A stretch of 64,000 nucleotides of DNA from Bacillota bacterium. Its GTDB lineage: Bacteria; Bacillota; SHA-98; UBA4971. The DNA lies in assembly GCA_024653485.1 (NCBI GenBank), contig JANLFY010000004.1, forward strand, positions 124,001 through 188,000, read 5' to 3'. A program made the position numbers and the translations under genes. A model generated the notes under the pieces. The model was given only the letters and a program-made list of their open reading frames with translations, made no database searches and had not been told where the DNA came from. Below, piece after piece: positions 13,594-36,679 of the stretch (position 1 is the stretch's first letter; each line of letters starts with the position of its first letter).

Positions 13594-13681
13594 GATGAAT
13601 CTCTCCGCTAGACCAGCGTTCGCGCGGTCCGAAGCCCTGACCTACGTGACCGCGTCCAGGCGAAATCTTTGGAGGCGGCAC

Positions 13682-14317: not shown

Positions 14318-14923
14318 GTCACATCACCTCATAGGTTGGCAAGCCGGGCCAACAGCCATCCATCGGGTTTCCCGACCATGCTCCGAAAAGGCGCGACGGT
14401 CGAAGCTGCAGATCGCCTGGAGTGTGACCTGCTCTGCGGCGGCGCACGATCACGTGCTTGGCGGGTGTGACATGCCGGGCAGCGGCGATGGTGGTGTAAT
14501 GGTACTGCCAAATAAGAATTCCCCACGCGCCCCCTGATCTCCTTCACGAACCGCGCGGACGAAGGACCGCCACCGTTTTTCGTTTCCGAAGCAGGAGACC
14601 GGCGCTCCGTGTAGAACACATTGAGGTGGTATGGTATGACATTTGGTGTACCAAATGCGTCTACGATCCCCAGGAGCGGACGGGGGGCGGACAGCCCTCT
14701 GGAATGCTGCCGCTTGAATGCCGACGAGATAACGCCACCAGGGAAGGGGGGACCGGCTACAAGAAGCTATAGGAGGTCTAGCATTAGTAGCCGAGCGTGC
14801 GCTAGGACGAATCCCGAACAAGACATCGTAAAGAAGCTGCAGCAGCATGTCACCAAGAGGAAGCTGGAAAGCGGTTGATGAATCAGCCCCGCTTTGGCGG
14901 GCGAAAGCCGGGAGGGGATATTC
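14318..14923. other. Divergent intergenic region, 606 bases
   Basis: The region lies between the GNAT gene and the first TAXI binding protein. It contains an 18-base operator-like palindrome (14640-14657) and a small stem CCCGC-TTTG-GCGGG at about 14888-14901 just before the ribosome binding site at 14911. No gene is supported here. Confidence 0.5.
14640..14657. promoter_or_regulatory. GntR/FadR-type operator candidate
   Basis: CATTTGGTGTACCAAATG is a palindrome with perfect 8-base arms around GT. Its TTGGT-N2-ACCAA core fits FadR-subfamily GntR sites (PdhR and LldR type). Similar sites lie at 19175 and 30968. It is 267 bases before the TAXI binding protein start. Confidence 0.6.
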
Positions 14924-15934: not shown

Positions 15935-16057
15935 CTCGGCGCCACGAGCGGCTCGAGGCAAGCGACAGGGAACTCGCCAGGCAGAGCAGCACGTTCAACC
16001 AGAGGAACCAAGTGACGCCGCACAGATGACCTTGAGCTGACTTGGGCCGGCGGCGAG

Positions 16058-16109
16058 CGGTCGGGCCCCGGATGCCCCGACGACGGAAAGCGGTTGCGGG
16101 GCCCGACCG
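16058..16109 (+). other. Hairpin between TAXI binding protein and permease
   Basis: Perfect 12-base arms CGGTCGGGCCCC (16058-16069) and GGGGCCCGACCG (16098-16109) enclose 28 bases. There is no T-tract, so it is more likely an mRNA-stabilising or partial-termination stem than a full terminator. Confidence 0.7.
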
Positions 16110-16154
16110 GCGCCAGCTTGGCTGCTCAAGGCGGCGTTGGAGGCATGATAACGC

Positions 16155-18113
16155 ATGGAAGGCACGCAAGTGACAGCGCGTTCGGAGAACACATCGAGCT
16201 CTCGATCAGGACCACGGCGTGTAGCAGGCATCGCGGCATCCATATGTTCGATAATAGCCGTAGCCTTTGCGGTTTTCGAAATATGGAGCAACAGCTTTTC
16301 GTTCCTTCCCACCCTGAAGATCAACGCGATTCACCTAGCTTTTCTGATGGCCCTATGTTTCCTTCTGTATCCGGCGCGGCGGGGGGCTAGCAGAGACAGG
16401 ATACCGGCCGTAGATTGGATCCTGGCCATAGTTGGGGCGGGGTGTGCCCTGTACTTCTGTTTTTCGTTCGATGCCTTGTACAACCGTGGCATGATCCCTC
16501 TTCCGCGGGACTACGTTGTCGCGGTCATCGGCATTCTCCTCGTCCTCGAGGCAGGGAGGAGGTCCACGGGACCCATACTCCCGGTCCTGGCAATCGTGTT
16601 CCTGTTGTACGCGAGGTTCGGCCGATACGTTCCGGGCGTTTTCGCGCATGGCGGGTTTCCGTGGTCCCGCATTGTGTCGAGGATGTTCATGACCGACGCC
16701 GGGGTTTTCGGAACGACCCTCACCATTTCCTCGACGTACCTCTTTCTCTTCGTCCTCTTCGGTGAGTTCCTGGCGAAGAGCGGGGTGGGTGAGTTCTTCA
16801 ACGACTTCGCGTTCTCATTGATCGGCCACAGAAGGGGTGGCCCCGCACAAGTCTCGGTGGTTTCGAGCGCGCTCATGGGCACTATAAGCGGGAGTTCCAT
16901 CGCAAACGTGGCGACTACGGGGAGCTTCACCATCCCGCTCATGAAACGCATCGGGTACACACCTGACTTTGCGGGAGCCGTGGAGGCCACCGCCTCCACC
17001 GGCGGGATGATCATGCCGCCGATCATGGGCGCAGCAGCGTTTTTGATGGCGGGGTTCCTTGGTGTTCCATACACCACCATCATGGTTGCGGGCATAATCC
17101 CGGCGATTCTTTACTATCTCTCTCTGTTCTTCGTGATAGACATGGAGGCGCAGCAGCTCGGACTACAAGGTCTTCCGAAGGCGGATCTGCCGAGGTTGGG
17201 CAGGGTGCTGAAGGAGAAGGGCTACCTGATCGTGCCCGTGCTCGTGATCATCTACGCCCTCATCTCCGGTCTCACCGCGATAACTTCGGCGTTCGCCGGC
17301 CTCATATCGACGGTCCTTGTAAGCTTTGTGAGCAGGAAGTCGAGGATGGGTCTGAAGAAGATAGTGGAAGCCCTTGCCCAAGGCGCACGGAGCATAGTGC
17401 CCATAGGCCTTGCCTGCGCGGTGGTGGGATTCATCGTGGGAGTGACCGGAATGACCGCCTTGGGATCCGTGGTCGCTTACAACATGATAGAGCTTGCAAG
17501 GGGCAGCTTGATTCTCGCGCTCGTTTTCGTGCTTCTGGCCTCCCTCGTTGCGAGCATGGGGCTGCCCGCTACCGCGTGTTACGTCGTGGTCGCGACCATC
17601 GCCGCTCCGGCGCTCGTGCGGATGAACGTCCCGCCACTGGCGGCACACTTCTTCGTGTTCTGGTTCGGCTGCTTGTCCGGGATAACGCCTCCGGTGGCAC
17701 TGGCTTCCTACACGGCCGCAGGGATCGCTGGCTCGAGCCCGAACAAGACGGCAATGACTGCGCTGCGTCTTGCGGCGCCTGGATTCCTTCTGCCGTTCCT
17801 GTTGGTGTATAGGCCGGAACTGCTAGGCCTACACACCACGCTTTCAAGGTTCCTCGTCTCCGTCGGCGTGGCCGCCGTGGCGTGTCTGTCGACGGCTTGT
17901 TGCACCCACGGATACTTGATGGGCAGGCTATCCACCTGGGAGAGGGCTTTGATGGGAGTCGGCAGCTTGATGCTTGTTAACCCTGACATGTGGTCGTACG
18001 TTGGGGTAACCATCATAATCGCCGTCATCGCATACCGCTGGTACCGCATGAGGACGGGGCGCAATCGATCGGCGGGTGTCAAGCTCCAGGCCGCCGCAAG
18101 GACTGGGAGCTGA
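16155..18113 (+). CDS. TRAP transporter fused permease (DctQ-DctM type, TAXI class)
   Basis: The 652-residue product has many hydrophobic segments. An N-terminal four-helix DctQ-like part (residues 22-150) is fused to a DctM-like large subunit. Conserved DctM features include ALMGTISGSSIANVATTGSFTIPLMKRIGY and EATASTGGMIMPPIMGAAAFLMA, and later GLPATACYVVVATIAAPAL and GITPPVALASY. It is an ion-driven importer of an organic acid working with the TAXI protein encoded upstream. GGAGG lies 12 bases before the ATG. A paralogue is encoded at 31254. A terminator-like stem follows the stop directly. Confidence 0.92.
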   Translation: MEGTQVTARSENTSSSRSGPRRVAGIAASICSIIAVAFAVFEIWSNSFSFLPTLKINAIHLAFLMALCFLLYPARRGASRDRIPAVDWILAIVGAGCALYFCFSFDALYNRGMIPLPRDYVVAVIGILLVLEAGRRSTGPILPVLAIVFLLYARFGRYVPGVFAHGGFPWSRIVSRMFMTDAGVFGTTLTISSTYLFLFVLFGEFLAKSGVGEFFNDFAFSLIGHRRGGPAQVSVVSSALMGTISGSSIANVATTGSFTIPLMKRIGYTPDFAGAVEATASTGGMIMPPIMGAAAFLMAGFLGVPYTTIMVAGIIPAILYYLSLFFVIDMEAQQLGLQGLPKADLPRLGRVLKEKGYLIVPVLVIIYALISGLTAITSAFAGLISTVLVSFVSRKSRMGLKKIVEALAQGARSIVPIGLACAVVGFIVGVTGMTALGSVVAYNMIELARGSLILALVFVLLASLVASMGLPATACYVVVATIAAPALVRMNVPPLAAHFFVFWFGCLSGITPPVALASYTAAGIAGSSPNKTAMTALRLAAPGFLLPFLLVYRPELLGLHTTLSRFLVSVGVAAVACLSTACCTHGYLMGRLSTWERALMGVGSLMLVNPDMWSYVGVTIIIAVIAYRWYRMRTGRNRSAGVKLQAAARTGS

Positions 18114-18118
18114 CGCAG

Positions 18119-18140
18119 GCCGGGCGAGATGCCCGGCTTT
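18119..18140 (+). terminator. Rho-independent terminator after TRAP permease
   Basis: GCCGGGC and GCCCGGC pair around GAGAT and are followed by TTT. The stem is strong but the T-tract is short. It starts six bases after the permease stop. Confidence 0.65.
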
Positions 18141-18226
18141 GCAGTGCCGTCGTCTTGTCGCGTGCGACTTGGCACGTGTTGGCGGACGGTGTGACCAAAG
18201 ATGGAAGACGTAAGACGCTCTCATCA

Positions 18227-18253
18227 GTCGCCGCAGTCGCCGCAGTCGCCGCT
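18227..18253. repeat. Tandem 9-base repeat, three copies
   Basis: GTCGCCGCA occurs twice followed by GTCGCCGCT, in the leader region about 120 bases before the GntR gene. No function is evident. Confidence 0.7.
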
Positions 18254-18375
18254 TTGCGGATGGCGACAAGCAGGAATGCCTGACCGCACACCGAAACTAA
18301 GACCGGGACTCTGAGGGTCTGCTTCGGGCTCGGTGGGTCATGACCCAAATCATCAGACAGAAGGGGAACCGGTGT

Positions 18376-19083
18376 GTGAGCAAAGAATGCGATGCTTCAA
18401 ACAGAGGTCAGCAAGCCGAGAAAGCGTACCTCGAAATCCGAGACCGCATTAAGAAGGGCATCTGGGGTCCCGGCTACCGTCTGGTGGAGCGGACCGTCGC
18501 GGAGGAGCTCGGTATGAGTCGTACCCCGGTGAGAGCGGCGTTCGAGAGGCTCTTCTCCGAGGGGTTGGTCGAGCTGGTGCCGAACAGGGGAGCCGTTGTG
18601 GTGAACCTCTCGCCAGAGGACGCCATTGAGATCCTTCAGATGAGGCAAGCGCTGGAGGTGCTGGCGTGCAGGCTTGCCGTCCCACGATTGACAGACGACG
18701 CAATGAAGCGACTGGCGGAGATTCTCGTAGAAATGGAGAAGGCCGTTGACGAGAACGACCTCTACCGATACTCCGACTTGAACGGAGTCTTCCACCGGAT
18801 CATAGTGGACGCGAGCGGGAGCAAGCGCCTGGCGGAAACGCTGGACCTCCTCAAGACCCAGACCGTTCGGCATAGGCTGACGTCGTTGCTGACACCAGGT
18901 CGGGCGCGCAACTCCGTGGCTGAACACGAGGCTATCGTTCGCGAGCTCGCCAGGTCTCGGAAGGAGGGAACGTCGATATACGCCGAAGAGGCAATGCGCC
19001 AGCACATCGACGGCCTTCTTGCCGGCCTGCTCTACGCCGCACAAAGAACCACTGAACAGGGCGGGTTTGGGATAGGCCTCTGA
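18376..19083 (+). CDS. GntR family transcriptional regulator, FCD domain
   Basis: The GTG at 18376 has AAGGGG nine bases upstream; an ATG at 18340 is possible but lacks a ribosome binding site. The 235-residue product has an N-terminal winged helix (about residues 16-75, with RLVERTVAEELGMSRTPVRAAFERL and a PNRGAVV wing). The C-terminal FCD ligand domain has metal-site-type residues DLNGVFHRII and AEHEAIV. FadR-subfamily regulators bind small organic acids and usually repress neighbouring genes. It lies between the TAXI-TRAP operon and the malic enzyme gene. Palindromes TGGT-ACCA before both are its likely targets (inference). Confidence 0.92.
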   Translation: MSKECDASNRGQQAEKAYLEIRDRIKKGIWGPGYRLVERTVAEELGMSRTPVRAAFERLFSEGLVELVPNRGAVVVNLSPEDAIEILQMRQALEVLACRLAVPRLTDDAMKRLAEILVEMEKAVDENDLYRYSDLNGVFHRIIVDASGSKRLAETLDLLKTQTVRHRLTSLLTPGRARNSVAEHEAIVRELARSRKEGTSIYAEEAMRQHIDGLLAGLLYAAQRTTEQGGFGIGL

Positions 19084-19174
19084 CTCTATGAGGTCCTTCC
19101 CGCGAATGTCGGAAAATCCGACATGTGTCGGAAGGAATTTCGTGATGGGTGGCGAACCTTCTTAGTGCGCATAG

Positions 19175-19192
19175 TGGTATACCAAATAGAAT
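19175..19192 (+). promoter_or_regulatory. GntR/FadR-type operator overlapping malic enzyme promoter
   Basis: TGGTATACCA (19175-19184) is a perfect 10-base palindrome lying two bases upstream of TAGAAT (19187-19192), a good -10 element. A repressor bound here would block the promoter of the malic enzyme gene, 114 bases downstream. The -35 is weak. Confidence 0.6.
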
Positions 19193-19305
19193 CCCGCGTG
19201 TCATACCCGACCGTCTTGGCACGTCAGCCATGGTGCGTCGCGCCGTGATCTGCGCACACCTGGCACCGGATGATTACACACGACAACAAAAGGGGGAGCG
19301 ACGAG

Positions 19306-20550
19306 GTGTCGATGAGAGAGGAGGCCTTGCGCCTTCATGAATCGAACAGGGGCAAGCTCAGAGTGGAGAGCAAGGTCCCTGTGAGGGACGCGCGAGACCT
19401 GAGCCTGGCGTACACGCCGGGAGTCGCGGAGCCTTGCAAAGAGATTCACGCGGACCCGGAGAAGATCTACAAGTACACGAGCAAGGGAAACCTTGTGGCG
19501 GTCGTCACCGATGGCACGGCCGTCCTCGGACTCGGCGATATAGGCCCTGGGGCTGGGATGCCGGTCATGGAAGGCAAAGCTGTCTTGTTCAAAGCATTCG
19601 CTGGGGTAGACGCCTTTCCAATCTGCCTTGCGACAAAAGACGCAGCAAAGATCGTTGAAGCAATCAAGCTACTGGAACCCACTTTCGGGGGGATAAACCT
19701 CGAAGACATCTCAGCCCCCACATGTTTTGAAGTGGAGTCTCGGCTCAAGAGGGAAGTCGCGATCCCGGTGTTCCACGACGACCAGCACGGAACGGCCATC
19801 GTGACCTGCGCCGCACTCATCAACGCCCTGAAGATCGTGCGCAAGAAGCCTCAGGACATCAGAGTCGCAGTGAGCGGAGCGGGGGCGGCGGGCATAGCAG
19901 TCACGAAACTCCTCCTCAAGCTGGGGGTGGGCGACGTCATCCTCTGCGATACGAAAGGTGCGATCTATGAGGGTCGAAGAGAGGGCATGAACCCGTACAA
20001 GGAAGAGATCGCTCAGGTCACCAACAGGCAACGCGTCACAGGCGGGCTGAAGGAGGTCCTGGCCGGCGCGGACGTGTTCATCGGCGTCTCCAAGGCCGGT
20101 CTAGTGGACAAGGACATGGTGAAGGCCATGGCCCGTGACGCCGTGGTGTTCGCCATGGCGAACCCCGTGCCTGAGATCATGCCTGACGAGGCGAGAGAGG
20201 GAGGAGCGAGAGTCGTCGCTACAGGCAGGTCGGACTTTCCGAACCAGATCAACAACGTCCTCGCTTTCCCGGGGGTGTTCAGAGGCGCGCTCGACGTGCG
20301 CGCGACGGACATCAACGAAGACATGAAGCTTGCGGCCGTATACGCTATCTCGGACCTGGTCTCAGACGAAGAGGTCTCGCCTGATTACATCATCCCGAGG
20401 CCATTCGATCCCCGTGTGGCGCCTGCGGTGGCTGCCGCGGTCGCGAAAGCGGCGATGGAGTCCGGCGTCGCACGGGTGAAGGTGGATCCGGAGGAAGTGA
20501 GACAACGTACGGAGAAACTCGTGAACGATGTCAGGTCTGCGTGGCGATAG
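19306..20550 (+). CDS. NAD(P)-dependent malic enzyme
   Basis: GTG 19306 has GGGGGAG at the best spacing (7 bases) and gives 414 residues, the size of short bacterial malic enzymes. The motifs YTPGVAEPCKEI, VTDGTAVLGLGDIGP, FHDDQHGTAIV (metal site) and SGAGAAGIAV (dinucleotide binding) are all present, as are FAMANPVPEI and GRSDFPNQINNVLAFPG. It decarboxylates malate to pyruvate with NAD(P) reduction. It follows a GntR regulator and an operator-like site. The context suggests it joins imported C4 or related acids to pyruvate metabolism. Cofactor preference cannot be read safely. Confidence 0.95.
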   Translation: MSMREEALRLHESNRGKLRVESKVPVRDARDLSLAYTPGVAEPCKEIHADPEKIYKYTSKGNLVAVVTDGTAVLGLGDIGPGAGMPVMEGKAVLFKAFAGVDAFPICLATKDAAKIVEAIKLLEPTFGGINLEDISAPTCFEVESRLKREVAIPVFHDDQHGTAIVTCAALINALKIVRKKPQDIRVAVSGAGAAGIAVTKLLLKLGVGDVILCDTKGAIYEGRREGMNPYKEEIAQVTNRQRVTGGLKEVLAGADVFIGVSKAGLVDKDMVKAMARDAVVFAMANPVPEIMPDEAREGGARVVATGRSDFPNQINNVLAFPGVFRGALDVRATDINEDMKLAAVYAISDLVSDEEVSPDYIIPRPFDPRVAPAVAAAVAKAAMESGVARVKVDPEEVRQRTEKLVNDVRSAWR

Positions 20551-20716
20551 CGTGTTGCGATAGCAGACGAGGGCTGCAAGGACACAGCGAGGCGCGCGGA
20601 GGTGCGCGATGTGTCGTGGGGTCGAAGAATCGCCTCGCGGGAGGTGAGTCCGGGGGTTCTGCTTGGAAGGGTCTCGCATCTCACCATCATTTTGAAGCAC
20701 GGGAGGTATGACGTCA

Positions 20717-21856
20717 ATGGAACGGATGACTGAAGAAGAAGTCAAGATTGCAGCGGACGGTATAGACACGCTAGTCACCGCAGCGGTCGGCGGGAAGTTC
20801 CACAAGTGGGAGAAGGAACCTCTGATTCGCTCTCTGTACAAAGTAGCGAGAGAGCGGACGCCGGGCCAGGTGCCGCTCACGTATTACGCGGCCAAGGGAC
20901 TCGTCGATCACGTCAAACCTGGCGATGTGGTGCTGATGGTGACGGGATGGTACCTTCCTCACTTCATGTCGGGAGAGACTGATGGACCTCCGGGGACGGC
21001 CGGTCTCGCCCGTGCGATCGACCTCGGTCTGGGCGCGACTCCCGTGATCATGACTGAGCCGAAGCTCAAGGAGATCGTGGAGGCGAGCTGCCGAGGGGCT
21101 GGGCTGCGCGTGTATGACCGCAAAGAGGCCCTCAAGATACCCAGGCGGGTCGTAGTGGAAACGCCGCTCCATCCGTACATGAGTGTGGAGGAGTCGGAGA
21201 GAGTCATCAAGCAAATCCTCGACGAACTCAAGCCTTCCGCAGTCATCGCGGTTGAGAAGGGAAGCCGCAGTAAGACGGGGATTTACCACTCCTTGTGGGG
21301 AATAGACATCACCCCGCTCACCGGAAAGTACGATCGCCTGGTCGAAGAGGCCAAGCGGCGCGGCATCTTCACGATAGGGATCGGTGACGGCGGGAACGAG
21401 ATAGGTCTGGGCGGCATCAGGGACGCCATCGAGAAGTACCTTCCCGTTGGCGCGAAGTGCCATTGCCCGTGCGGGCAAGGGGTGGCTGCCACGACCGAGA
21501 CGGACAGCATGATCGTTTCGTTCGTGTCGAACTGGGGCGCTTACGGGATCGAGGCGGCTTTGGCCATGCTGCTTGGCAGGACCGACATCATTCACTCCGC
21601 GGAGGACGAGGAAAGGATCCTGCGAGCCGCGGCGTGGGCGGGTGCGATAGCCTCGCCATACGGATATTCCGGCGTCGCGGTGGTGGACCAGATACCAGAG
21701 AAGATCAATGTAAACATCGTCGAGATGCTGCACTACATGGTCAAGGCCTACCTCGTCGACACCGAGCAGCGCAAGTGGTACCAGGAAACAGCCAAACACC
21801 AGGCGGACATGAACACGTGGATCAAAGACGAGTACGCGGCGTGGAAGGATAAATAG
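20717..21856 (+). CDS. DUF4392 / glutamate cyclase-like protein
   Basis: The ATG at 20717 is ten bases after GGGAGG; the ATG at 20708 is only one base after it. The 379-residue product has ETDGPPGTAGLARAIDLGLGATPVI, IGDGGNEIGLGGI and CHCPCGQGVAATTETDSMIV. I recognise these from the DUF4392 family, which includes the C-terminal domain of eukaryotic D-glutamate cyclase. That enzyme interconverts D-glutamate and 5-oxoproline. The bacterial substrate here is unknown; a related lactam or cyclic acid is possible. A TIM-barrel protein gene follows, separated by a strong hairpin. Confidence 0.75.
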   Translation: MERMTEEEVKIAADGIDTLVTAAVGGKFHKWEKEPLIRSLYKVARERTPGQVPLTYYAAKGLVDHVKPGDVVLMVTGWYLPHFMSGETDGPPGTAGLARAIDLGLGATPVIMTEPKLKEIVEASCRGAGLRVYDRKEALKIPRRVVVETPLHPYMSVEESERVIKQILDELKPSAVIAVEKGSRSKTGIYHSLWGIDITPLTGKYDRLVEEAKRRGIFTIGIGDGGNEIGLGGIRDAIEKYLPVGAKCHCPCGQGVAATTETDSMIVSFVSNWGAYGIEAALAMLLGRTDIIHSAEDEERILRAAAWAGAIASPYGYSGVAVVDQIPEKINVNIVEMLHYMVKAYLVDTEQRKWYQETAKHQADMNTWIKDEYAAWKDK

Positions 21857-21886
21857 GCCCCTCCTGCCGGCGACGGTCTTGCTTTT

Positions 21887-21926
21887 CGCCGGACCGGGCG
21901 CCGCCTGCGCGCGCACCGGTCCGGCG
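21887..21926 (+). other. Hairpin between DUF4392 gene and TIM-barrel gene
   Basis: CGCCGGACCGG (21887-21897) and CCGGTCCGGCG (21916-21926) are perfect 11-base arms with an 18-base loop. No T-tract follows. It may stabilise or attenuate the message. Confidence 0.65.
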
Positions 21927-22111
21927 AGGGATGGAGGATGTGGGACGGGACCTGGGTCTCGAAAAACGAGCCCTCATAGCGACACGAGACGAAGCGACTT
22001 CGGGGCTAGCCCACAGCAACTCGAGCTGACTCAAGCTGATTCGGAATCAAGCCACCCGGTTTCACGAGAGCAGGGCTCGTGGCGAGATGGCTGCTGGAAG
22101 GAGTGGACTTC

Positions 22112-23029
22112 ATGATTTTCGAGAAGACAAGGGCCTTCATGGAGAAGCTGGGCCTACCCGGCTCAGACGCGTGGGATCTCCCCACGTCGGGCAAGACCTT
22201 TCCCGACGGGGCTCACTGGCGGAGCGAGGTTCCCACGGTCAACTCGGCGGAGGCCATGAGAGTGCTGGTGGAGACGGCGAAGAAGGTGTACAATCACAAT
22301 ATAAACCGCGTGGACGACACGTACGGGATCATACGACACACGGCGCAGGAGATAAAGGAGTACGTCGCCATCGCCAAGGATTACGGCGTCGAGCTCAACT
22401 TCTCCGTGGGTCCGAGGGCTACTTACGATACCGGTGCCACAGTATTGAGCTCGCAGGGCGTGCGGGTTGGGTACAGGTTGCGTGGAATGGAGCAGCTCGT
22501 GAGGGCTATCGAAGATGTGAAGAGAGCGTGCGATCTGGGTGTCCGGGGGATCATCGTGTACGACGAGGGGATGCTCTGGGTCATGGACGAGATGAGAAAG
22601 GCCGGAGAGCTCCCCGCGAACCTTCATATCAAACTATCGGCGCACATGGGCGCCTGCAACCCCGCCTCCTTCAAGCTGTTCGAGAGGCTGGGCGCGAACA
22701 GCATCAACCCCATACGTGACCTGCAGCTCCCCATGATCGCTGCACTTAGGCAAGCCGTGGACGTGCCCATTGATCTGCACACGGACAACCCGCCCGCATC
22801 GGGTGGTTTCATCAGGACGTACGAAGCCCCTGAGATGGTAAGAGTCGCATCCCCCGTGTATCTCAAGTCAGGTAATTCGGCGGTGAGCGCTCACGGGATA
22901 ATCACCAACGCGAACGACGGAAGGAACATGGCTGCTCAGTGCGCAATCGTGAAGGAGATCATGCAGCGGTACTTCCCAGAGGCGAAGCAGTCCGAGCCTG
23001 GCCAGCCTGACATGGCGATACCTGAGTAG
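22112..23029 (+). CDS. TIM-barrel protein of unknown function, U32-peptidase-like
   Basis: The ATG at 22112 has AAGGAG eight bases upstream; the product is 305 residues. It reads as an alternating beta/alpha barrel with VELNFSVGPRATYDTG, GIIVYDEGMLWVMDEM, KLSAHMGACNPASFKLFERLGANSINP and VPIDLHTDNPPASGG. The last two have the polar loops of a barrel active site. Similar proteins are often labelled peptidase (U32-related) in databases, but I see no basis for a peptidase reaction. It sits between a glutamate-cyclase-like gene and an FrhB-like gene and may act on the same compound. Function unknown. Confidence 0.6.
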   Translation: MIFEKTRAFMEKLGLPGSDAWDLPTSGKTFPDGAHWRSEVPTVNSAEAMRVLVETAKKVYNHNINRVDDTYGIIRHTAQEIKEYVAIAKDYGVELNFSVGPRATYDTGATVLSSQGVRVGYRLRGMEQLVRAIEDVKRACDLGVRGIIVYDEGMLWVMDEMRKAGELPANLHIKLSAHMGACNPASFKLFERLGANSINPIRDLQLPMIAALRQAVDVPIDLHTDNPPASGGFIRTYEAPEMVRVASPVYLKSGNSAVSAHGIITNANDGRNMAAQCAIVKEIMQRYFPEAKQSEPGQPDMAIPE

Positions 23030-23398: not shown

Positions 23399-24601
23399 GT
23401 GAAGACCTTCGACGATCTGAAGCGCGAAGTGATCGATCAAGGGCTATGCATGGGCTGCGGGACCTGTGTCGGAGTATGCGCATCCGGCAGCATTGCCATC
23501 GACTACAGCCTGGATGAGCCTGAGCCGAAACTGGTGAAGGAATGCACGGAGTGCGGGCGCTGCGTTGAGGTGTGCCCAGGCAAGGACATTCCGTTGAGGG
23601 ACCTTGACAAGAGGTTTCTGGGCAGGGAGAGGGACCCCGAGAAGGAGCCGCTCGGCATCTACAAGGCGTGCTACAAGGGCTGGGCCGCTGATCCCTACGT
23701 AAGGACGAGCACGAGCAGCGGCGGGATGACGTCGGCGCTTCTCAATTACGCCCTGAATGAGGGGCTGATCGACGGAGTGCTCCTCGCGGGCTGGAATCCG
23801 GAACCTCCGTACTGGCGATGCCGTCCGTTCATAGCGACGACGCCGGAGGAGGTGTCGATGGGGCTCCGCACCGGCATGATGATGGTGCCCAACAACTCCC
23901 TCATCTCGGAGGCGGTATCCCGAAGGAAGCTGTCCAAAATCGCGGTTGTGGGGTGTCCGTGCCACATACACGGAGTCCGCAAGCTCCAGGCCTCAGGGCA
24001 GCCCAAGAAGTTCGCGGACGCAATCCAGTTCACGATAGGGGTGTTCTGTGCCGCCACCTACTACGGAGAAGGGACGAAGCACCTGGTCCAGGAGTTCGCG
24101 AACGTGCAGAACCTCGACGACATAATCGCCATGGACTACCGCGGGGGCAAGTGGCCGGGCTCACTCTACGTAGTGACCAAGGATCGCAAGATACACTGGG
24201 CGGGCAGCAAACACGACTACACGTGGCACTTCCTCGGATCGGCTAGCTACAAGCGGGACAGGTGCCTCATGTGCATAGACTTCTCCGCGGAGCTCGCCGA
24301 TGTGTCGTGCGGCGACATCTTCCAGGAGGTCGGCCACTCGAACCGAAGGCTCGTGGCGACGCTGCCCAGGACGAGCGTGGGCGAGGAGCTCATCGCCGGC
24401 GCGCTTGCAAAGGGGTACGTCGAGATAGAACCCCACGACCCGGCTCTCATCCCGGCAAGTGGAATGGGGTGGGAGGCTAAGAAGCACGCCGGGATGTACA
24501 GGCTGATACAGAGGAAGAGGTATGGGTGGCCCACCCCGGATTACCAGTATCCGCTGGCTGTGACCGCCCTGCCGAGGACGCTCACGTTCCCGTCGGCATG
24601 A
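23399..24601 (+). CDS. FrhB-like iron-sulfur flavoprotein (coenzyme F420 hydrogenase beta subunit family), copy 1
   Basis: GTG start with GGGAGGG upstream; 400 residues. Two ferredoxin-type [4Fe-4S] clusters are predicted from C17/C20/C23/C27 and C49/C52/C55/C59 (the last followed by PGK). The FrhB/FdhB N-terminal and C-terminal domains follow, with SSGG near residue 105, GCPCHIHGVRKLQ near 180, and a cysteine set DRCLMCIDFSAELADVSCGDIF near 290. Such proteins pass electrons between iron-sulfur clusters and a flavin, and in methanogens to F420. No F420 genes are visible. It precedes ubiX and the LpdD/TctCAB/UbiD genes. A close paralogue is at 39007. Confidence 0.85.
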   Translation: MKTFDDLKREVIDQGLCMGCGTCVGVCASGSIAIDYSLDEPEPKLVKECTECGRCVEVCPGKDIPLRDLDKRFLGRERDPEKEPLGIYKACYKGWAADPYVRTSTSSGGMTSALLNYALNEGLIDGVLLAGWNPEPPYWRCRPFIATTPEEVSMGLRTGMMMVPNNSLISEAVSRRKLSKIAVVGCPCHIHGVRKLQASGQPKKFADAIQFTIGVFCAATYYGEGTKHLVQEFANVQNLDDIIAMDYRGGKWPGSLYVVTKDRKIHWAGSKHDYTWHFLGSASYKRDRCLMCIDFSAELADVSCGDIFQEVGHSNRRLVATLPRTSVGEELIAGALAKGYVEIEPHDPALIPASGMGWEAKKHAGMYRLIQRKRYGWPTPDYQYPLAVTALPRTLTFPSA

Positions 24602-24640
24602 GCCGGCGTTGGCGTTGCGCCCATCATACCTGGTAGAGAA

Positions 24641-24670
24641 GCCCCCGCGGTGCTCGGGCATCGCGGGGGC
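24641..24670 (+). other. Hairpin after FrhB-like copy 1
   Basis: GCCCCCGCG (24641-24649) and CGCGGGGGC (24662-24670) form a 9-base perfect stem with a 12-base loop. There is no T-tract. It may be a factor-assisted terminator or a processing stem between the FrhB-like gene and ubiX. Confidence 0.6.
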
Positions 24671-24745
24671 GCGGTTCACGGCGAGGCGAGACTTGGTCCG
24701 GGCAATCCGCGGACATCTGCAAGTCGCACGGGACGGTGAAACTGA

Positions 24746-25321
24746 ATGCGCCTGGTAGTCGGGATCACGGGTGCCACGGGAGCCATATACGGGATAAGGG
24801 TGTTGGAAGCACTCAAGGCAGGCGGCATCGAGTCTCATCTCGTGATAAGCCCATGGGGGGAGAAAACGATAGAGGTCGAGACCTCGTATAGTGTTGCAAC
24901 AGTGAAGGCTCTCGCCTCCCACTGTCACGACCCTTCTGCACTCGACGCTCCGATCTCGAGCGGGTCCTACCTCACCGCAGGCATGATCATAGCCCCCTGC
25001 AGCATGAAGACTCTCGCGGCTATCGCCAACGGATACTCGGAGAACCTTCTTGAGAGAGCCGCGGACGTCACCATCAAGGAAAGCCGTCCTCTGGTTCTCG
25101 TGGTGAGGGAGACTCCGCTTAGTGCGATTCATCTGGAGAACATGTTGAAACTCGCGCGTCTGGGCGTCACGATAATGCCTCCGGTGCCCGCCTTCTATTG
25201 CCGTCCGAGGAGCATCGACGATGTAGTCAACCATCTCGTTGGGAAGATCCTTGATAGGTTCGGGTTGAGCCACGACCTCTTCCCAAGGTGGGGGTCTTGC
25301 GAACATGAGCGGAGGGAATAG
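24746..25321 (+). CDS. ubiX: Flavin prenyltransferase UbiX
   Basis: The 191-residue product has the Rossmann-like flavoprotein motif GITGATGAIYGIRVLEAL at residues 6-23. PCSMKTLAAIANGYSENLLERAADV is the canonical UbiX block, followed by RPLVLVVRETPLS and a C-terminal GKILDRFGL. It attaches a dimethylallyl group to FMN to make prenyl-FMN, the cofactor of UbiD-type decarboxylases. A UbiD gene is present at 29145 in the same gene run, so the two very probably work together. The next gene starts inside its 3' end. Confidence 0.95.
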   Translation: MRLVVGITGATGAIYGIRVLEALKAGGIESHLVISPWGEKTIEVETSYSVATVKALASHCHDPSALDAPISSGSYLTAGMIIAPCSMKTLAAIANGYSENLLERAADVTIKESRPLVLVVRETPLSAIHLENMLKLARLGVTIMPPVPAFYCRPRSIDDVVNHLVGKILDRFGLSHDLFPRWGSCEHERRE

Positions 25322-25748
25322 CGGGGCTGTGTACGAGATCTCGGCGGGCGAAGGAAGGTTCCGTCTGTCGCTCGCAGCGACGTGGGCCGGGAACGACCTC
25401 GTGGTTACCATTACCGGCGGGGACGCTCCTCACATAGGCTCGGTCGCCGTGGCGGTGCCGAGGCCGAGTCTGCGTGACCCGTCCGTGACAAGCGCGACCG
25501 CGTCAGTGATAACTCTCGTCGGACACAAGGATGATGAGCTTGCGAAGCCCATAGCGGAGTTCATGGCTGCGAGGCTCAAGGTGGCAGTAGTGGCTGTGGT
25601 CGGGATACACGTGGACGGGGCGACGCCGGACGACGTTGAGTGCCTGCGGGACATAGCGTGGGAGCTCGCCCGGAGCTGTGTAGCCGGGGCCGTGCGACAG
25701 GGTAGCGGGCACGTACGCGGAGGGGCGCTTCGCGGCGACAGCGAGTGA
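25305..25748 (+). CDS. LpdD-like prenylated-flavin chaperone domain protein
   Basis: The ATG lies 17 bases inside ubiX, showing coupling. The 147-residue product has ITGGDAPHIGSVAVAVPRPSL, SVITLVGHKDDELAKPIAEFMA and VVVGIHVDGATPDD-like segments, which I recognise from the LpdD-like family found with gallate and protocatechuate decarboxylases. The family is thought to assist cofactor maturation or activity of UbiD-type enzymes. The C-terminal 20 residues are basic and poorly conserved in type. Its position between ubiX and the TctCAB-UbiD genes supports the call. Confidence 0.75.
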   Translation: MSGGNSGAVYEISAGEGRFRLSLAATWAGNDLVVTITGGDAPHIGSVAVAVPRPSLRDPSVTSATASVITLVGHKDDELAKPIAEFMAARLKVAVVAVVGIHVDGATPDDVECLRDIAWELARSCVAGAVRQGSGHVRGGALRGDSE

Positions 25749-25908
25749 AGGTGCGTCCTATTGGAGAGACGCGGTCCAGCGTGGGGCGGCGCCGAGTCGT
25801 TGCGCCGAGCCGTCGCGAGCCTGGTGGCACGTGATGTGAAGTTACACGAGTGGGAGGAACCGACGTCACAAACCTTATCTGCAGTAAAGCCAGAGGAGGC
25901 AAACGATC

Positions 25909-26946
25909 ATGGCAAGCAAGGCGATAAGACGCATAGTTCTAGCGAGCGTAACCATGATGGTCCTCGCCAGTCTCGCGGGTGCCGGGGTTCTTGCCGCAGC
26001 CAACGGGGACCTGTCGTTCTTCAAGGGCAAGGTCATCAAGTTCATCGTGCCGTACAGCGTTGGGGGCGGGTTTGACTCGTACGCCAGGGCCATGGCGCCG
26101 TATCTGGAGGAGTACATCCCCGGTGTAACCGTCGTGGTGCAGAATGTCGCTGGCGGCGGCGGGATGATCGGAATCAATACTCTGTACGCCGCAGACCCGG
26201 ACGGCCTGACCATAGGCATTGCGCACGGGGCAGGAGCGGTGATCAATCAGGTGTTGAAGACGCCGGGGACGAGGTTCAACTTGGAGGAGATGAACTGGCT
26301 TGCCCGGGTCACGACCGAACCGCTCCTCACCGTCGTGTCCGGCAAGTCCCCGTTCAAGACGGTCAAGGACTTCGCCGGTGCCGGAAGGCCGATAGTCTTC
26401 GCCCAGACAGGGGTGGGCAGCGGAGACTACTATGGGTCACTGTTGCTGCTGAAGGCCCTGGGAATCAACTACAAGGTCGTTACCGGCTTTCCGGGTTCGC
26501 GGGAGGCGAACCTCGCGGTGGTGCGCGGCGAAGGCGTGGACGGAACCTCAGCGTTCTACGGCTCGTTGGTATCCCTCATTGAGACGGGTGACGTAAGGCC
26601 GGTGGTACAACTGGCGTTCGAGCGCCACAAGGACCTTCCGGGCGTCCCCACTGCCCTCGAGGTGGTTCCCCCTGAGAACCGCGAACTCGCACGTGCGTTG
26701 ACTAGCCTCTTCGAGATCAAGTACATAATCGCCGCTCCACCCAAGGTGCCGGCGGAGCGCGTGTCCGCCTTGCGGGCAGCGTTCGACAAGGTCTTCGCGG
26801 ATCAGGAGTTCATCGATTGGTCGGTGAAGATGAAGTGTCCCGTTGACTACCTGAACGGGGCCGCGCTCGACAAGTTGGTAAGAGAGAACGTTGACGCTTT
26901 CACGAAACTCGAGCGTGAGCTCAAAGCCATAACCGAGAAAGGTTGA
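25909..26946 (+). CDS. tctC: Tripartite tricarboxylate transporter substrate-binding protein (TctC/Bug family)
   Basis: The 345-residue product has a signal peptide (about residues 1-31, ending VLAAA). KVIKFIVPYSVGGGFDSYARAMAPYL is the Bug-family N-terminal ligand loop, VVVQNVAGGGGMIGINTLYAA the second, and APPKVPAERVSALRAAFDKVF the usual C-terminal motif. It binds a carboxylate outside the cell for TctA and TctB encoded next. The family binds many aromatic and aliphatic acids; the neighbouring UbiD decarboxylase suggests an unsaturated or aromatic carboxylate (inference). A hairpin lies between it and tctA. Confidence 0.93.
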   Translation: MASKAIRRIVLASVTMMVLASLAGAGVLAAANGDLSFFKGKVIKFIVPYSVGGGFDSYARAMAPYLEEYIPGVTVVVQNVAGGGGMIGINTLYAADPDGLTIGIAHGAGAVINQVLKTPGTRFNLEEMNWLARVTTEPLLTVVSGKSPFKTVKDFAGAGRPIVFAQTGVGSGDYYGSLLLLKALGINYKVVTGFPGSREANLAVVRGEGVDGTSAFYGSLVSLIETGDVRPVVQLAFERHKDLPGVPTALEVVPPENRELARALTSLFEIKYIIAAPPKVPAERVSALRAAFDKVFADQEFIDWSVKMKCPVDYLNGAALDKLVRENVDAFTKLERELKAITEKG

Positions 26947-27009
26947 CGTTGCGGATCGAGCAAGACTGCGAAAGAGCGAGTCAAACCGCAAAGAAGAGGG
27001 AAGAGGGCA

Positions 27010-27042
27010 GGCGGACGGGGCGGACTCGCGCCCCGTGCCGCC
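27010..27042 (+). other. Hairpin between tctC and tctA
   Basis: ACGGGGCG (27015-27022) pairs with CGCCCCGT (27029-27036), extended by GGCGG (27010-27014) with CCGCC (27038-27042) across one unpaired base. No T-tract. It is 21 bases before the tctA start. Confidence 0.6.
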
Positions 27043-27063
27043 CGTCCCTGGGAGGTAGGTTTC

Positions 27064-28551
27064 ATGTTGTCGCAAGCATTCCAGGGCGTGAGCGCCCTCC
27101 TTGCCGTACAGCCGTTCTCGTACATGCTGCTGGGAATCCTAGTGGGGCTCGCTTTCGGAGTGGCTCCGGGTCTCGGCGGAATCACAGCGATGGCCATTCT
27201 CGTTCCTCTGACCTACAAGCTGGGCCAGACGAGCGCCTTCGCGCTCCTCATCGGCGCGGCGAGCGCCGTCGCCTTCGGGGGGTCTGTCAGCGCGATCCTC
27301 ATCAACACGCCGGGCACTAACCAAAGCGTGGCGACGTGTCTCGATGGGTACCCGATGACGAGGAGTGGAGAGGGCAGGCGGGCGATAGGCATCAGTGCCA
27401 CAGCTTCGGCACTGGGAGGCGTGGTGGGCGCGATCGTCCTTCTCGCCCTGATCCCGGTCATGCACAAGGTCGTCCTGGCATTTGCGCCTCCCGAGTACTT
27501 CATGCTCTGCCTCCTCGGGCTCACCGCCATAGCCGGAGTGAGCGGCAAGACCATGCTGAAAGGGTTGGTCATGGGAGGGCTCGGAATCCTTCTCTCGTTC
27601 GTTGGCTACGACCCCGTGACGGGCACGCTCCGCTACACTTTCAACGCGTTGTACCTGTACGACGGTATCGACGTTGTGGCCGCGGTGATCGGCCTCTTCG
27701 CCATCGCCGAGATGATGTCGTTGATGGTTGAAGGGAGCACCATCGTATCGGGGAACGTCGAGGAAAAGCCTGGCGGGCTCGTAGAGGGCATGAAGGACGT
27801 GTTCAGGCACTGGTGGCTCTTCCTCCGATCCAGCGTCATCGGAACAGTGATAGGCATCATTCCAGGCATAGGAGGCGGGACCGCGAACGTCGTGGCTTAC
27901 AGCCACGCGGTTCAGACGTCCAGGTGTCCGGAGAGATTCGGGACGGGAGTGCCTGAAGGCGTGATAGCTCCCGAGTCCGCGAACAACGCCAGCTTCGGTG
28001 GAGCCCTCGTGCCGACAGTGGCCTTCGGTATCCCTGGCAGCGAGATGTGCGTGGTGCTCCTCGGCGCTTTCATGCTGCACGGGCTCGTGCCGGGACCCGA
28101 GATGCTGAAGGAACACCTTGACCTCGTGTTCCAGATGGCGTGGGGTGTGGCGTTCGCAAACATCATAGCCTCCCTGATCGGAGTTGCCTTCATGAGTTGG
28201 CTGGTCCGACTGTGCTCGGTGAGGGTGTCGCTCTTGGCCCCCTCGATCATCGCCATATCGCTGCTGGGAGCGTTCGCTACGTCTGGAAACGTGGCGGACG
28301 TGCTCGTGGCGCTAGTGTTCGGTATTTTTGGCTACTGGATGAAGAAGCTCGGATATCCGCGCGCGCCCCTGATGATAGGGCTCGTGCTAGGGGGTCTGGC
28401 CGAGGTGAACCTCCATCTTTCGCTGCAGATCTATGGCCTGGGATTCGTTCTCCGGCCGATAGCCTTGGTCATCCTAGCATTGATCCTCGTGTTTGCGTTC
28501 GGTCCGGCAGTGCAGCGCGTCGTGGCGGGAAGGAGGCGTGTTGAAGCGTGA
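27064..28551 (+). CDS. tctA: Tripartite tricarboxylate transporter large permease TctA
   Basis: The 495-residue protein has about 11-12 hydrophobic segments. GLAFGVAPGLGGITAMAILVPL near residue 28 and GTVIGIIPGIGGGTANVVAY near 260 are the twin Gly-Pro-Gly motifs of TctA, each at the pseudo-symmetric half. It forms the ion-coupled channel for the acid captured by TctC. The start has GGGAGGTAGG-type Shine-Dalgarno sequence. TctB overlaps its 3' end by four bases. Confidence 0.95.
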   Translation: MLSQAFQGVSALLAVQPFSYMLLGILVGLAFGVAPGLGGITAMAILVPLTYKLGQTSAFALLIGAASAVAFGGSVSAILINTPGTNQSVATCLDGYPMTRSGEGRRAIGISATASALGGVVGAIVLLALIPVMHKVVLAFAPPEYFMLCLLGLTAIAGVSGKTMLKGLVMGGLGILLSFVGYDPVTGTLRYTFNALYLYDGIDVVAAVIGLFAIAEMMSLMVEGSTIVSGNVEEKPGGLVEGMKDVFRHWWLFLRSSVIGTVIGIIPGIGGGTANVVAYSHAVQTSRCPERFGTGVPEGVIAPESANNASFGGALVPTVAFGIPGSEMCVVLLGAFMLHGLVPGPEMLKEHLDLVFQMAWGVAFANIIASLIGVAFMSWLVRLCSVRVSLLAPSIIAISLLGAFATSGNVADVLVALVFGIFGYWMKKLGYPRAPLMIGLVLGGLAEVNLHLSLQIYGLGFVLRPIALVILALILVFAFGPAVQRVVAGRRRVEA

Positions 28552-29063
28552 AAGCATCTGAGCAGTACATTTTCGGCCTCGTGGTGGCGGTGATGCTTGC
28601 AGGCTTTGTGGTCATGGGGATGGGGTACCTGCCCCAAGCGAGACTGGCGCCGCTTTCGATAGGACTGCCGACCCTGGGTCTCATGCTGATTCTTCTACAG
28701 CGGATGAAGAGCCAGGGCAGAGCGCGCGCGTTGAAAGATGGGCCGAGTGGCGAGGCAGGGGGGCAAGGATCGCACACCGAAGCTAGTGGGGAGGACGCCA
28801 GTGGGGAACGCGTGGGCGGCGGGGCGCGCGTCACGCTTGCGACGGAGGTGTCGATCATAGGGTGGATCGTGGGGTTCACCGCCCTCATCTGGCTCGTTGG
28901 GTTCACCGTGGCCATTCCGGTCTTCCTGTTCCTGATGGCACGGGGCAAGTTCAGGGAGGGCTTCGCGGTATCACTTGGCTTGGCGTTGACCGTGGGAGCT
29001 GGCCTTTACATCGCGTTCGACGTGCTCCTCAAGGTCCCGATGAACTGCGGCATCTGGCCGTGA
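28548..29063 (+). CDS. tctB: Tripartite tricarboxylate transporter small permease TctB
   Basis: The start GTGA overlaps the tctA stop. The 171-residue product has four hydrophobic segments in two pairs separated by a charged linker (about residues 60-98, rich in Gly, Ser and acidic residues), the TctB layout. It partners TctA. Weak sequence conservation is normal for this family, so the call rests on topology and position. Confidence 0.85.
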   Translation: MKASEQYIFGLVVAVMLAGFVVMGMGYLPQARLAPLSIGLPTLGLMLILLQRMKSQGRARALKDGPSGEAGGQGSHTEASGEDASGERVGGGARVTLATEVSIIGWIVGFTALIWLVGFTVAIPVFLFLMARGKFREGFAVSLGLALTVGAGLYIAFDVLLKVPMNCGIWP

Positions 29064-29144
29064 CTTGCGCTGACCCGGGCGCGCGTCCGAATGCAAGCTG
29101 GCTGGCACGAAGAGAGCTGACGAAAACCGAGTGGGGGTGCGAAG

Positions 29145-30575
29145 TTGAGATTCGCTGATCTGAGGGAGTATGTCCGGGCGCTCGAGGAGAACGGGCTCGT
29201 GAAACGAATCTCTGAGGAAGTCGACAAAGACTGGGAAATCGCTGCGTTGTGCCGTCTTGCCTTCACCAAGCTGCCGTCGGAGACGAGGCCGGCTCTTCTC
29301 TTCGAGAATGTCAAGGGGTTCGATTCGCCGGTAGTGGCCGGGGTGCTGGGAGCGTCGCGCCGTGTGTACGCGATGGCCTTGGGCATCGACACTTTCGGTG
29401 GCAACGTGCTCACGGAGATAGCACAGCGGTGGGCCCGAGCCATCAAGAACCCGGTCGCGCCCAGGCTCGTGACAACCGGACCTTGCAAAGAGAACATCCT
29501 CACCGGCGACGACATAGACGTGTTCAGGTTTCCGGTGCCCATGTGGACGGTAGGAGAGGATCCTGGGCTTTTTCTGACCGCGCCGTGCGTGGTGACGAAG
29601 GACCCCGAAACAGGGACGAGGAACGTTGGGACCTACCGGATTCAACTCAAGGAGCGCAACAAGACGGGTATCCACATGGGCAAGACCCGCCACATTTACA
29701 GACACATACAGAAGAATGAAGCCAAGGGCAGGCCCACGCCTGTGGCCATTGTCGTGGGGAGCGATCCCACCGTGGGTCTCGCTTCTGTGTCATCTGTGCC
29801 GTTCGGCGTCGATGAACTGGCAGTCGCGGGGGCGCTGAGGGGCGAGCCGGTGGACGTGGTCAAGTGCGAGACGGTCGACCTTGAAGTGCCTGCGACCGCG
29901 GAAATAGTCATCGAGGGGCTGATCAGGCCAGGATACAGGGAGCTCGAGGGGCCGTTCGGGGAGTATCCCGGCTACATGGGAGCGTCGGGTGACGCGCCGG
30001 TGGTGGACGTCACGTGCATTACGTTCAGAAACGACGTCGTGTTCCACGCCTTCGTAAGCCAGATGCCTCCGAGCGAGTCCAGCCTGATAAGGGGGTGCGG
30101 GCGGGAGTCCTCGATATATGCCCACCTCGTCGCCGATCACAAGCTGCCCATTCGAGACGTTCACCTGAAGGAGAGCGGCGGGAGCGCGGCATACCTTGCT
30201 ATCTCCATGCGACCGCAGTACCCCGGTCAGGTGTGGGAGACTGCCTGGGCAGCGTGGACAGTCGACCCGTCGCTTGGGAAGATCACGGTGATAGTGGACG
30301 ACGACATAGACATCAGAGATCCGTTCCAGCTCGACTGGGCCATGAGCTTTCGGGTTCAACCGGAGCGGGACCTGCACATCGTTAGTGGAACGGCGGCCGT
30401 CATGAACGACCCGTCTCAGGCCGCGAAAGGGGTCACCAAAGAGGATCCATCGCGGCACGTCTCATCCAAGGTGCTCATAGACGCGACGAAGAAGCACGAG
30501 TACCCCGCTATAGCCATGCCGCCCGCCGAGCACCTCGCCAGAGCCGCTGAGAAGTGGGAAAGGCTTCGGTTCTAG
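29145..30575 (+). CDS. UbiD family decarboxylase
   Basis: TTG start at 29145 with a GGGGGTG upstream; 476 residues. The sequence fits UbiD throughout: KTRHIYRHIQKNEAKG, PVAIVVGSDP, and ELEGPFGEYPGYMG, which holds the conserved glutamates of the prenyl-FMN site. It should reversibly decarboxylate an alpha,beta-unsaturated or aromatic acid using prenyl-FMN made by UbiX encoded 4 kb upstream. TctCAB lies between them and would supply the substrate. UbiD proper (ubiquinone pathway) is less likely because no other quinone genes are present. Substrate unknown. Confidence 0.9.
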   Translation: MRFADLREYVRALEENGLVKRISEEVDKDWEIAALCRLAFTKLPSETRPALLFENVKGFDSPVVAGVLGASRRVYAMALGIDTFGGNVLTEIAQRWARAIKNPVAPRLVTTGPCKENILTGDDIDVFRFPVPMWTVGEDPGLFLTAPCVVTKDPETGTRNVGTYRIQLKERNKTGIHMGKTRHIYRHIQKNEAKGRPTPVAIVVGSDPTVGLASVSSVPFGVDELAVAGALRGEPVDVVKCETVDLEVPATAEIVIEGLIRPGYRELEGPFGEYPGYMGASGDAPVVDVTCITFRNDVVFHAFVSQMPPSESSLIRGCGRESSIYAHLVADHKLPIRDVHLKESGGSAAYLAISMRPQYPGQVWETAWAAWTVDPSLGKITVIVDDDIDIRDPFQLDWAMSFRVQPERDLHIVSGTAAVMNDPSQAAKGVTKEDPSRHVSSKVLIDATKKHEYPAIAMPPAEHLARAAEKWERLRF

Positions 30576-35195: not shown

Positions 35196-35276
35196 ATCGC
35201 AGCGGCGTCCGAAGTGCGGACGTGGCGCTGTGGGCGCTATTGGGGTGCAGCCCGACTCGAGAGGTGATTGCCGCTC

Positions 35277-36167
35277 ATGCGTGAGAGATTGCCCAGATTC
35301 AGATACATGGAGGCCCGCTCGGTAGAGGAGGCTCTGTCTCTCCTGAAAGAATTGGGACCCGGCGCGAAGCTGCTCGCCGGGGGAACGGACCTCCTCGTGG
35401 CCATGAGAATGAAGGGAGCGAGGCCTGACGCCCTGGTCAACCTGAAGACCGTTCCCGGTCTCGATACGATCGAAGCTCGCGCCGACGGGCTCTTTATCGG
35501 AGCTCTCGCCACTATGCAGGCCGTGGCGGACAGCCCGGAAGTGGCGCGTGGGTTTGGCTGCCTTGCTCGGGCCGCTGGCGTCGTGGGCTCGTGGCAGGTA
35601 CGCAACAGGGCCACGGTGGGAGGCAACCTTTGCAACGGGGCGCCGTCGGCTGAGACCGCCCCGCCACTGCTGGTGCTGGGTGCCAAGGCGCACGTGGCGG
35701 AGCCCGGAGGCGGGGCGAAGGTCGTCGACCTCGATGACTTCTTCCTGGGTCCAGGGGTCACTTTGTGCTCGTCGGGCAGGCTCCTCCTTGGGATAGCCGT
35801 GCCGGAGCCTCCTCAAGACATGTGGACAACTTACATCAAACACAGCCCGCGCAGGGCCATGGACATCGCGGTCGTGGGAGTGGCTGTCGGGCTTGCGCTC
35901 AAGGACGGAGGCCGCGTGAGGGAAGCCAGGATCGCCCTAGGGGCTGTCGCACCCACGCCCTTCAGGGCGCGAGAGGCTGAAGCCTACCTGGAGGACAGGA
36001 TCCTCACCTCGGAGGCGGCGAGGGAAGCGGGTAGACTTGCGGCGCGTGCCGCAAGGCCCATCTCCGACGTCCGCGCCTCAGCTGGGTACAGACTTGAGAT
36101 GTGCGAGACACTGGTCGCAAGGGCCCTCACGGCTCTCGCCTCCTGTGGGAGGGATGGTCGGGGATGA
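35277..36167 (+). CDS. Molybdenum hydroxylase FAD-binding subunit (CoxM/XdhB type)
   Basis: ATG 35277 with GAGAGGTGA upstream gives 296 residues; a TTG at 35268 is possible. LLAGGTDLLVAMRMK near residue 33 and RNRATVGGNLCNGAPSAETAPPLLVLGA near 111 are the two FAD-binding motifs of this subunit. The C-terminal CO-dehydrogenase flavoprotein domain (SDVRASAGYRLEMCETLV) is intact. It passes electrons from the 2Fe-2S subunit to an acceptor. The stop overlaps the next start (ATGA). Confidence 0.93.
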   Translation: MRERLPRFRYMEARSVEEALSLLKELGPGAKLLAGGTDLLVAMRMKGARPDALVNLKTVPGLDTIEARADGLFIGALATMQAVADSPEVARGFGCLARAAGVVGSWQVRNRATVGGNLCNGAPSAETAPPLLVLGAKAHVAEPGGGAKVVDLDDFFLGPGVTLCSSGRLLLGIAVPEPPQDMWTTYIKHSPRRAMDIAVVGVAVGLALKDGGRVREARIALGAVAPTPFRAREAEAYLEDRILTSEAAREAGRLAARAARPISDVRASAGYRLEMCETLVARALTALASCGRDGRG

Positions 36168-36679
36168 ATGGGGTTGGACATGCGGGCGATGACATGGTGA
36201 CTATCAGGCTCCGGGTGAATGGAAAGGCTCGGGAGGTGTCTGTGAGACCCAACGAGACGCTGCTCGATGTGCTCAGAGAGAGGCTTGGGCTCACCGGCAC
36301 CAAGAAAGGATGCGTCCTTGGAGACTGCGGCGCGTGCACGGTGCTCCTGGACGGAAAGCCCGTGAACTCGTGCCTCGTACTCGCTGTGGACGCCGCTCAC
36401 GGCGAGGTTCTCACTGTCGAGGGCTTGGCGGAGAACGGCGGACTGCATCCTCTTCAGGAGGCTTTCATCAGGTACGGCGCGATTCAGTGTGGATACTGCT
36501 CCCCGGGCATGCTCCTGTCTCTCAAAGCATTGCTCGACCGCGAGCCTTACCCGACTCGCGAACAAGTCATGAGCGCCATCTCTGGCAATCTTTGCCGGTG
36601 CGGCGGATACCACAAGATCGCCGACGCGGCCCAGGCGGCCTCGAGTGCGGGAGAGCGCGGGGGTGACGATAGATCATGA
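36164..36679 (+). CDS. Molybdenum hydroxylase [2Fe-2S] subunit (CoxS/XdhC type)
   Basis: The 171-residue product has a plant-type [2Fe-2S] site (GCVLGDCGACTVLLDG and NSC) and a second helical [2Fe-2S] site (CGYCSPGM and NLCRCGGY). It wires the molybdenum centre to the FAD subunit. The start overlaps the FAD subunit stop and its stop overlaps the large subunit start, so all three subunits are co-translated. A start at 36194 is also possible. The usual length is about 160. Confidence 0.93.
   Translation: MNGVGHAGDDMVTIRLRVNGKAREVSVRPNETLLDVLRERLGLTGTKKGCVLGDCGACTVLLDGKPVNSCLVLAVDAAHGEVLTVEGLAENGGLHPLQEAFIRYGAIQCGYCSPGMLLSLKALLDREPYPTREQVMSAISGNLCRCGGYHKIADAAQAASSAGERGGDDRS

Follow-up and report, generated by a model that had tools for sequence, protein, structure and literature searches.

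The locus lies on the genome of a Bacillota species (3.0 Mb, 98.9% complete) and was analysed as part of a stretch of 64,000 nucleotides, hereafter called the window. Seven genes follow one another on the + strand, each an open frame with Pfam matches above the curated cut-off. The first encodes the 400-residue FrhB-like protein FrhB1 (23399-24601). It is followed by genes for UbiX, a flavin prenyltransferase (prFMN synthase; 24746-25321; Pfam Flavoprotein, and 257 bits against TIGR00421 with a cut-off of 109), and for an LpdD-like protein, the putative prFMNH2-binding chaperone of UbiD (25305-25748; PAC_bac/LpdD, PF21758, 118.7 bits). The components of a tripartite tricarboxylate transporter come next, namely the periplasmic solute-binding protein TctC (25909-26946; PF03401), the large membrane subunit TctA (27064-28551; PF01970, 464 bits) and the small membrane subunit TctB (28548-29063; PF07331), all above the Pfam cut-off in one run. 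The last gene encodes a UbiD-family prFMN decarboxylase (29145-30575; UbiD_N, UbiD, UbiD_C and TIGR00148 above cut-off). The original prediction had described these genes as adjacent, and coordinates, strand and Pfam matches bear this out. UbiX and LpdD overlap by a few bases, as do TctA and TctB. FrhB1 is separated by about 370 bp from the gene upstream and by 144 bp from UbiX, with a GC-rich hairpin in the latter gap (24641-24670, + strand; 13-bp stem, 4-nt loop, no T-run), so that order and strand agree with the description as one gene run, which may or may not apply to transcription.

Two further groups of genes on the + strand bear on the interpretation. Upstream of FrhB1 lies a block (14894-23029; assigned by Pfam) that encodes a TAXI solute-binding protein, a TRAP permease, a GntR regulator, malic enzyme, a D-glutamate-cyclase-like protein (PF14336, DUF4392) and a U32-like protein, in an order that is the same in two other species of the genus, G002 and G004. 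Downstream, 4.7 kb behind UbiD, a xanthine-dehydrogenase-family molybdenum hydroxylase is encoded (35268-38985). The gene of a second FrhB-like protein (FrhB2, 39007-40227; 60% identical to FrhB1 and its only strong paralogue in the genome) starts 22 bp 3' of the large subunit of this enzyme, and G002 and G004 share this layout.

The decarboxylase is the sole UbiD of the genome. Its catalytic residues R165, E268 and E273 are conserved in 75, 75 and 74 of 75 subfamily homologues, respectively, and the subfamily motif QxPPSESS occupies residues 306-313. By its domains and the catalytic Arg-Glu-Glu, it is a UbiD-family prFMN decarboxylase, with predicted activity. Against the curated hydroxyarylic (vanillate/gallate) model VdcC it scored 295 bits, below the cut-off of 650.

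LpdD has been described as a prFMNH2-binding chaperone that helps the activation of UbiD, with a metal site formed by H35, H61 and D63 (PMC10865409). Residues H43, H74 and D76 of the window protein, as read from the sequence, fit this pattern, and the metal site thus appears to be conserved. The locus resembles the gallate decarboxylase system of Lactobacillus plantarum, LpdB (UbiX)-LpdD-LpdC (UbiD), in having UbiX, an LpdD-type chaperone beside it and a UbiD-family decarboxylase (PMC10865409). It differs in that the decarboxylase falls outside the curated hydroxyarylic type, that a Tct transporter is present, and that UbiD stands in one run with UbiX and LpdD. Across the phylum, PF21758 was found in 45 of 200 genomes; UbiX was detected near LpdD in 10 of 30 loci, and UbiD-like genes in several more. 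A second UbiX-LpdD pair, with identities of 58% and 52%, was seen on contig 55 of G002 (L239, 4.3 kb), a genome in which a protein search found no UbiD.

When 84,980 named genomes were scanned, 79 loci of this UbiD subfamily were obtained. Eight of them (L075-L077, L079, L082, L090, L093 and L096) form a clade with 97% support, in which every UbiD stands beside Tct-type genes and/or UbiX: TctABC in L075 and L093, UbiX and TctABC in L076, UbiX in L077 and L079, and a TctC-like gene in L082, L090 and L096. The members include Paradesulfitobacterium, a Desulfovibrio MAG, Halalkalibacterium and Alicyclobacillus, and UbiX and/or Tct recur across several phyla. Judged by path length, the UbiD of the window is close to this clade, its exact position having no strong support. 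In Paradesulfitobacterium ferrireducens (L093), the Desulfovibrio MAG (L075) and Halalkalibacterium ligniniphilum (L076), a UbiD of the same subfamily (57-61%) adjoins TctABC as in the window, but these clusters contain no FrhB, LpdD was not detected in them by BLAST, and xanthine-dehydrogenase-type, AOR-like and second UbiD genes are among their neighbours. The closest named relative with the full set was MAG-64 Firmicutes_O3_bin27 (L074), which belongs to the same genus; G004 also retains everything from FrhB1 through UbiD.

The neighbours of the UbiD relatives, labelled from sequence with Pfam applied to part of them, further comprised xanthine-dehydrogenase-type genes (about 20 loci, within 7 kb), a second UbiD (21), amidohydrolase (10), dihydroorotate-dehydrogenase-like (8) and AOR-like genes (4). 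In the two Alicyclobacillus loci, the gene after the UbiD-UbiX pair reads as an AGZA-type (xanthine/uracil) permease (L077 11146-12708; L079 11627-13201), a possible hint to the substrate. A 52% UbiD relative from a Bacillota groundwater MAG (L007; L111 2401-3819) adjoins a hydantoinase-like gene, and about a dozen UbiD matches were found in that genome.

Since genes for taking up a substrate, for making and delivering the cofactor and for decarboxylation stand together, UbiX-LpdD-TctCAB-UbiD plausibly forms one coherent uptake-and-decarboxylation unit of an already known kind. By analogy with characterised relatives of the families found here, TctC would bind an extracellular carboxylate, which would be imported through TctAB. 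UbiX would produce prFMNH2, LpdD would hand it to apo-UbiD, and UbiD would then decarboxylate an unsaturated or (hetero)aromatic acid. The window thus offers a compact and complete example (UbiX, LpdD, transporter and decarboxylase) of a widespread UbiD subfamily and a good candidate for reconstitution.

FrhB1 has both the N- and the C-terminal FrhB_FdhB domains above cut-off (PF04422, PF04432), preceded by an N-terminal ferredoxin domain (Fer4) for two [4Fe-4S] clusters. Its cysteines 17, 20, 23, 27, 49, 52, 55 and 59 as well as 188, 217, 289 and 292 are invariant in 12 homologues. An AlphaFold model for which 12 sequences were supplied was of low quality (mean pLDDT 59). The nearest solved relatives are 8RIU and 8RJA, the FrhB-type F420-reductase modules of CO dehydrogenase and formylmethanofuran dehydrogenase from ethane-oxidising archaea, in which the FrhB domain holds FAD and one [4Fe-4S] cluster (PMC11493965). 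FrhB1 shares their architecture, a two-[4Fe-4S] ferredoxin domain joined to an FrhB domain, but no CODH or Fwd partner adjoins it. It scored 138.6 bits against the equivalog of the F420 hydrogenase beta subunit (TIGR03289), well below the cut-off of 331.5, and the best match to CofD of F420 synthesis (TIGR01819) in the genome had 23 bits with a cut-off of 257. As no CofD reached the cut-off, F420 is an unlikely carrier for FrhB1.

The original prediction had also suggested that FrhB, as part of the same pathway, may couple decarboxylation or ring reduction to electron transfer. The neighbourhoods supported the proposed pathway in part: UbiX and/or Tct recur beside UbiD, as described above, but FrhB is not conserved with it, an outcome that the original prediction itself had named as speaking against its reading. 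FrhB was present in one of 87 contexts of related UbiDs, the single case being L074 from the same genus; 36 of these contexts span at least 15 kb, so some of the absences are weak. Conversely, the FrhB clade, found in 15 of 399 genomes of the phylum, occurs elsewhere without UbiD. No UbiD-like sequence was found around FrhB copies other than that of G004 in 14 fetched loci (three of them from G002 and G001 of the same genus, with FrhB homologues from eight other genera also covered), while G004 as a positive control gave 75 matches. In seven of these eight genera, the neighbours were mostly genes for C4-dicarboxylates or related carboxylates. DctPQM, fumarase, succinate dehydrogenase, malic enzyme, MmgE/PrpD, CoA-transferase, mesaconyl-CoA-hydratase-like and CitE-like genes were found next to members of the clade. 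In the eighth genus (G111), a 35% homologue lies among genes for cell-surface polysaccharides. A DUF1847 protein adjoins the FrhB homologue in several genera (L058, L061, L062, L194).

G002 provides a natural deletion. In this species the order TAXI, TRAP, GntR, malic enzyme, DUF4392, U32-like and FrhB1 is kept, and 3' of FrhB1 only a UbiX pseudogene was found (42% identity, two stops; L052, about 13672-14112), with no LpdD, Tct or UbiD between FrhB1 and the next TRAP gene and no UbiD elsewhere by protein search. FrhB1 itself is open, free of stops and 91% identical to the window protein. With a dN of 0.054 and a dS of 1.37, the dN/dS of about 0.04 points to strong purifying selection; these values come from a simple Nei-Gojobori calculation with dS near saturation. 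In G002, therefore, FrhB1 has remained under selection despite the decay of the UbiX-to-UbiD block. The UbiX remnant also indicates that FrhB1 and UbiX, which are adjacent in the window genome (G000) and in G004, were already neighbours in the common ancestor of these species and G002.

In G000, G004 and G002 alike, a strong hairpin follows FrhB1 at the same site, and the sequence of its stem differs between them. Judged from the sequence, it is likely a 3' boundary or an mRNA-stabilising element of the FrhB1 transcript. The number of hairpins in the window (5) does not exceed that in mononucleotide shuffles (2-5), and a scan for promoter and terminator consensus sequences gave nothing above shuffles. 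Because the hairpin has no T-run and hairpins of this kind are about equally common in shuffles, it supports a transcript end rather than proving it, and the argument for a boundary draws on its recurrence in three species, not on the count.

Taken together, we consider it probable that two units lie end to end: UbiX-LpdD-TctCAB-UbiD, and a separate FrhB1 that is kept with the upstream block and is independent of UbiD. FrhB1 would then probably be an electron-wiring iron-sulfur flavoprotein retained with the TAXI/TRAP/malic-enzyme/DUF4392/U32 block and tied to (di)carboxylate metabolism via ferredoxin or another non-F420 carrier. Going by gene neighbourhood alone, a link of FrhB to dicarboxylates is probable; the link to the upstream block is based on three species of one genus.

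It is also possible, if somewhat unlikely, that FrhB1 belongs to neither unit and, as an electron-transfer protein whose gene stands on its own, came to lie between them by chance. The gap of about 370 bp to the upstream block means that it may be a single-gene unit, and the 144-bp gap with its hairpin sets it off on the other side. Moreover, in G001 of the same genus the malic-enzyme/DUF4392/U32 genes are kept, and the FrhB that accompanies them is more distant (59%) and in a different position. However, the order of FrhB1 and the upstream block is the same in three species, and most homologues in other genera flank genes of (di)carboxylate transport or metabolism. After the U32-like gene of G001 (L056 4095-6901), two genes that by eye resemble maleate isomerase or arylmalonate decarboxylase and a second DUF4392 gene were noted.

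An improbable alternative for the decarboxylase side is a furan-type pathway, as for HmfF, in which the nearby xanthine-dehydrogenase-family enzyme would catalyse a later step. The best PDB match of UbiD was 6H6V (1.6e-79), which together with 6H6X we take to be HmfF, the 2,5-furandicarboxylate decarboxylase; both proteins have the same domain order and catalytic Arg and Glu residues. Xanthine-dehydrogenase-type genes also occur near related UbiDs and lie downstream here. However, H296 of HmfF, presumably a substrate-binding residue, aligns with S312 of the window protein within QxPPSESS, so that a Ser replaces the substrate-facing His. In addition, the molybdoenzyme cluster with FrhB2 is kept in G002 despite the absence of UbiD, and no furoyl-CoA ligase was found among the window genes read.

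A coupling of FrhB1 to UbiD, in which FrhB1 would use ferredoxin either to reduce the ring or C=C product left by decarboxylation or to oxidise prFMNH2 in UbiD maturation, would fit the ancestral adjacency of FrhB1 and UbiX, the possibility that anaerobes need an oxidant other than oxygen for prFMN maturation (raised in PMC10865409) and the electron wiring by FrhB-family modules in other enzymes (PMC11493965), but it is very unlikely, given the selection on FrhB1 in G002 without UbiD, the lack of FrhB in 86 of 87 UbiD contexts, the lack of UbiD near other FrhB homologues and the strong hairpin between FrhB1 and UbiX. We thus rejected FrhB as a UbiD partner on the neighbourhoods and the natural deletion in G002, and FrhB1 most likely has no function within the UbiD unit; of the single pathway originally proposed, transporter, prFMN synthase, chaperone and decarboxylase are retained. 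In view of the ancestral adjacency to UbiX, FrhB1 may still cooperate with UbiD in a conditional or dispensable manner. Literature searches for FrhB with UbiD or with chlorophyll reductases gave nothing relevant, and those for FrhB as a 6-hydroxynicotinate-reductase-like protein, an idea taken from the xanthine-dehydrogenase-type neighbours, gave nothing usable.

Gene order alone was misleading here: FrhB persists where the decarboxylase unit has been lost, and it draws attention to a clade of FrhB proteins from bacteria that apparently lack F420. From its position behind the large subunit, FrhB2 is a possible electron-wiring subunit of the molybdenum hydroxylase. We tentatively suggest that F420-independent FrhB-type flavoproteins form a clade in Bacillota that carries electrons into or out of carboxylate metabolism, with FrhB2 as a dedicated wiring subunit of the molybdenum hydroxylase.
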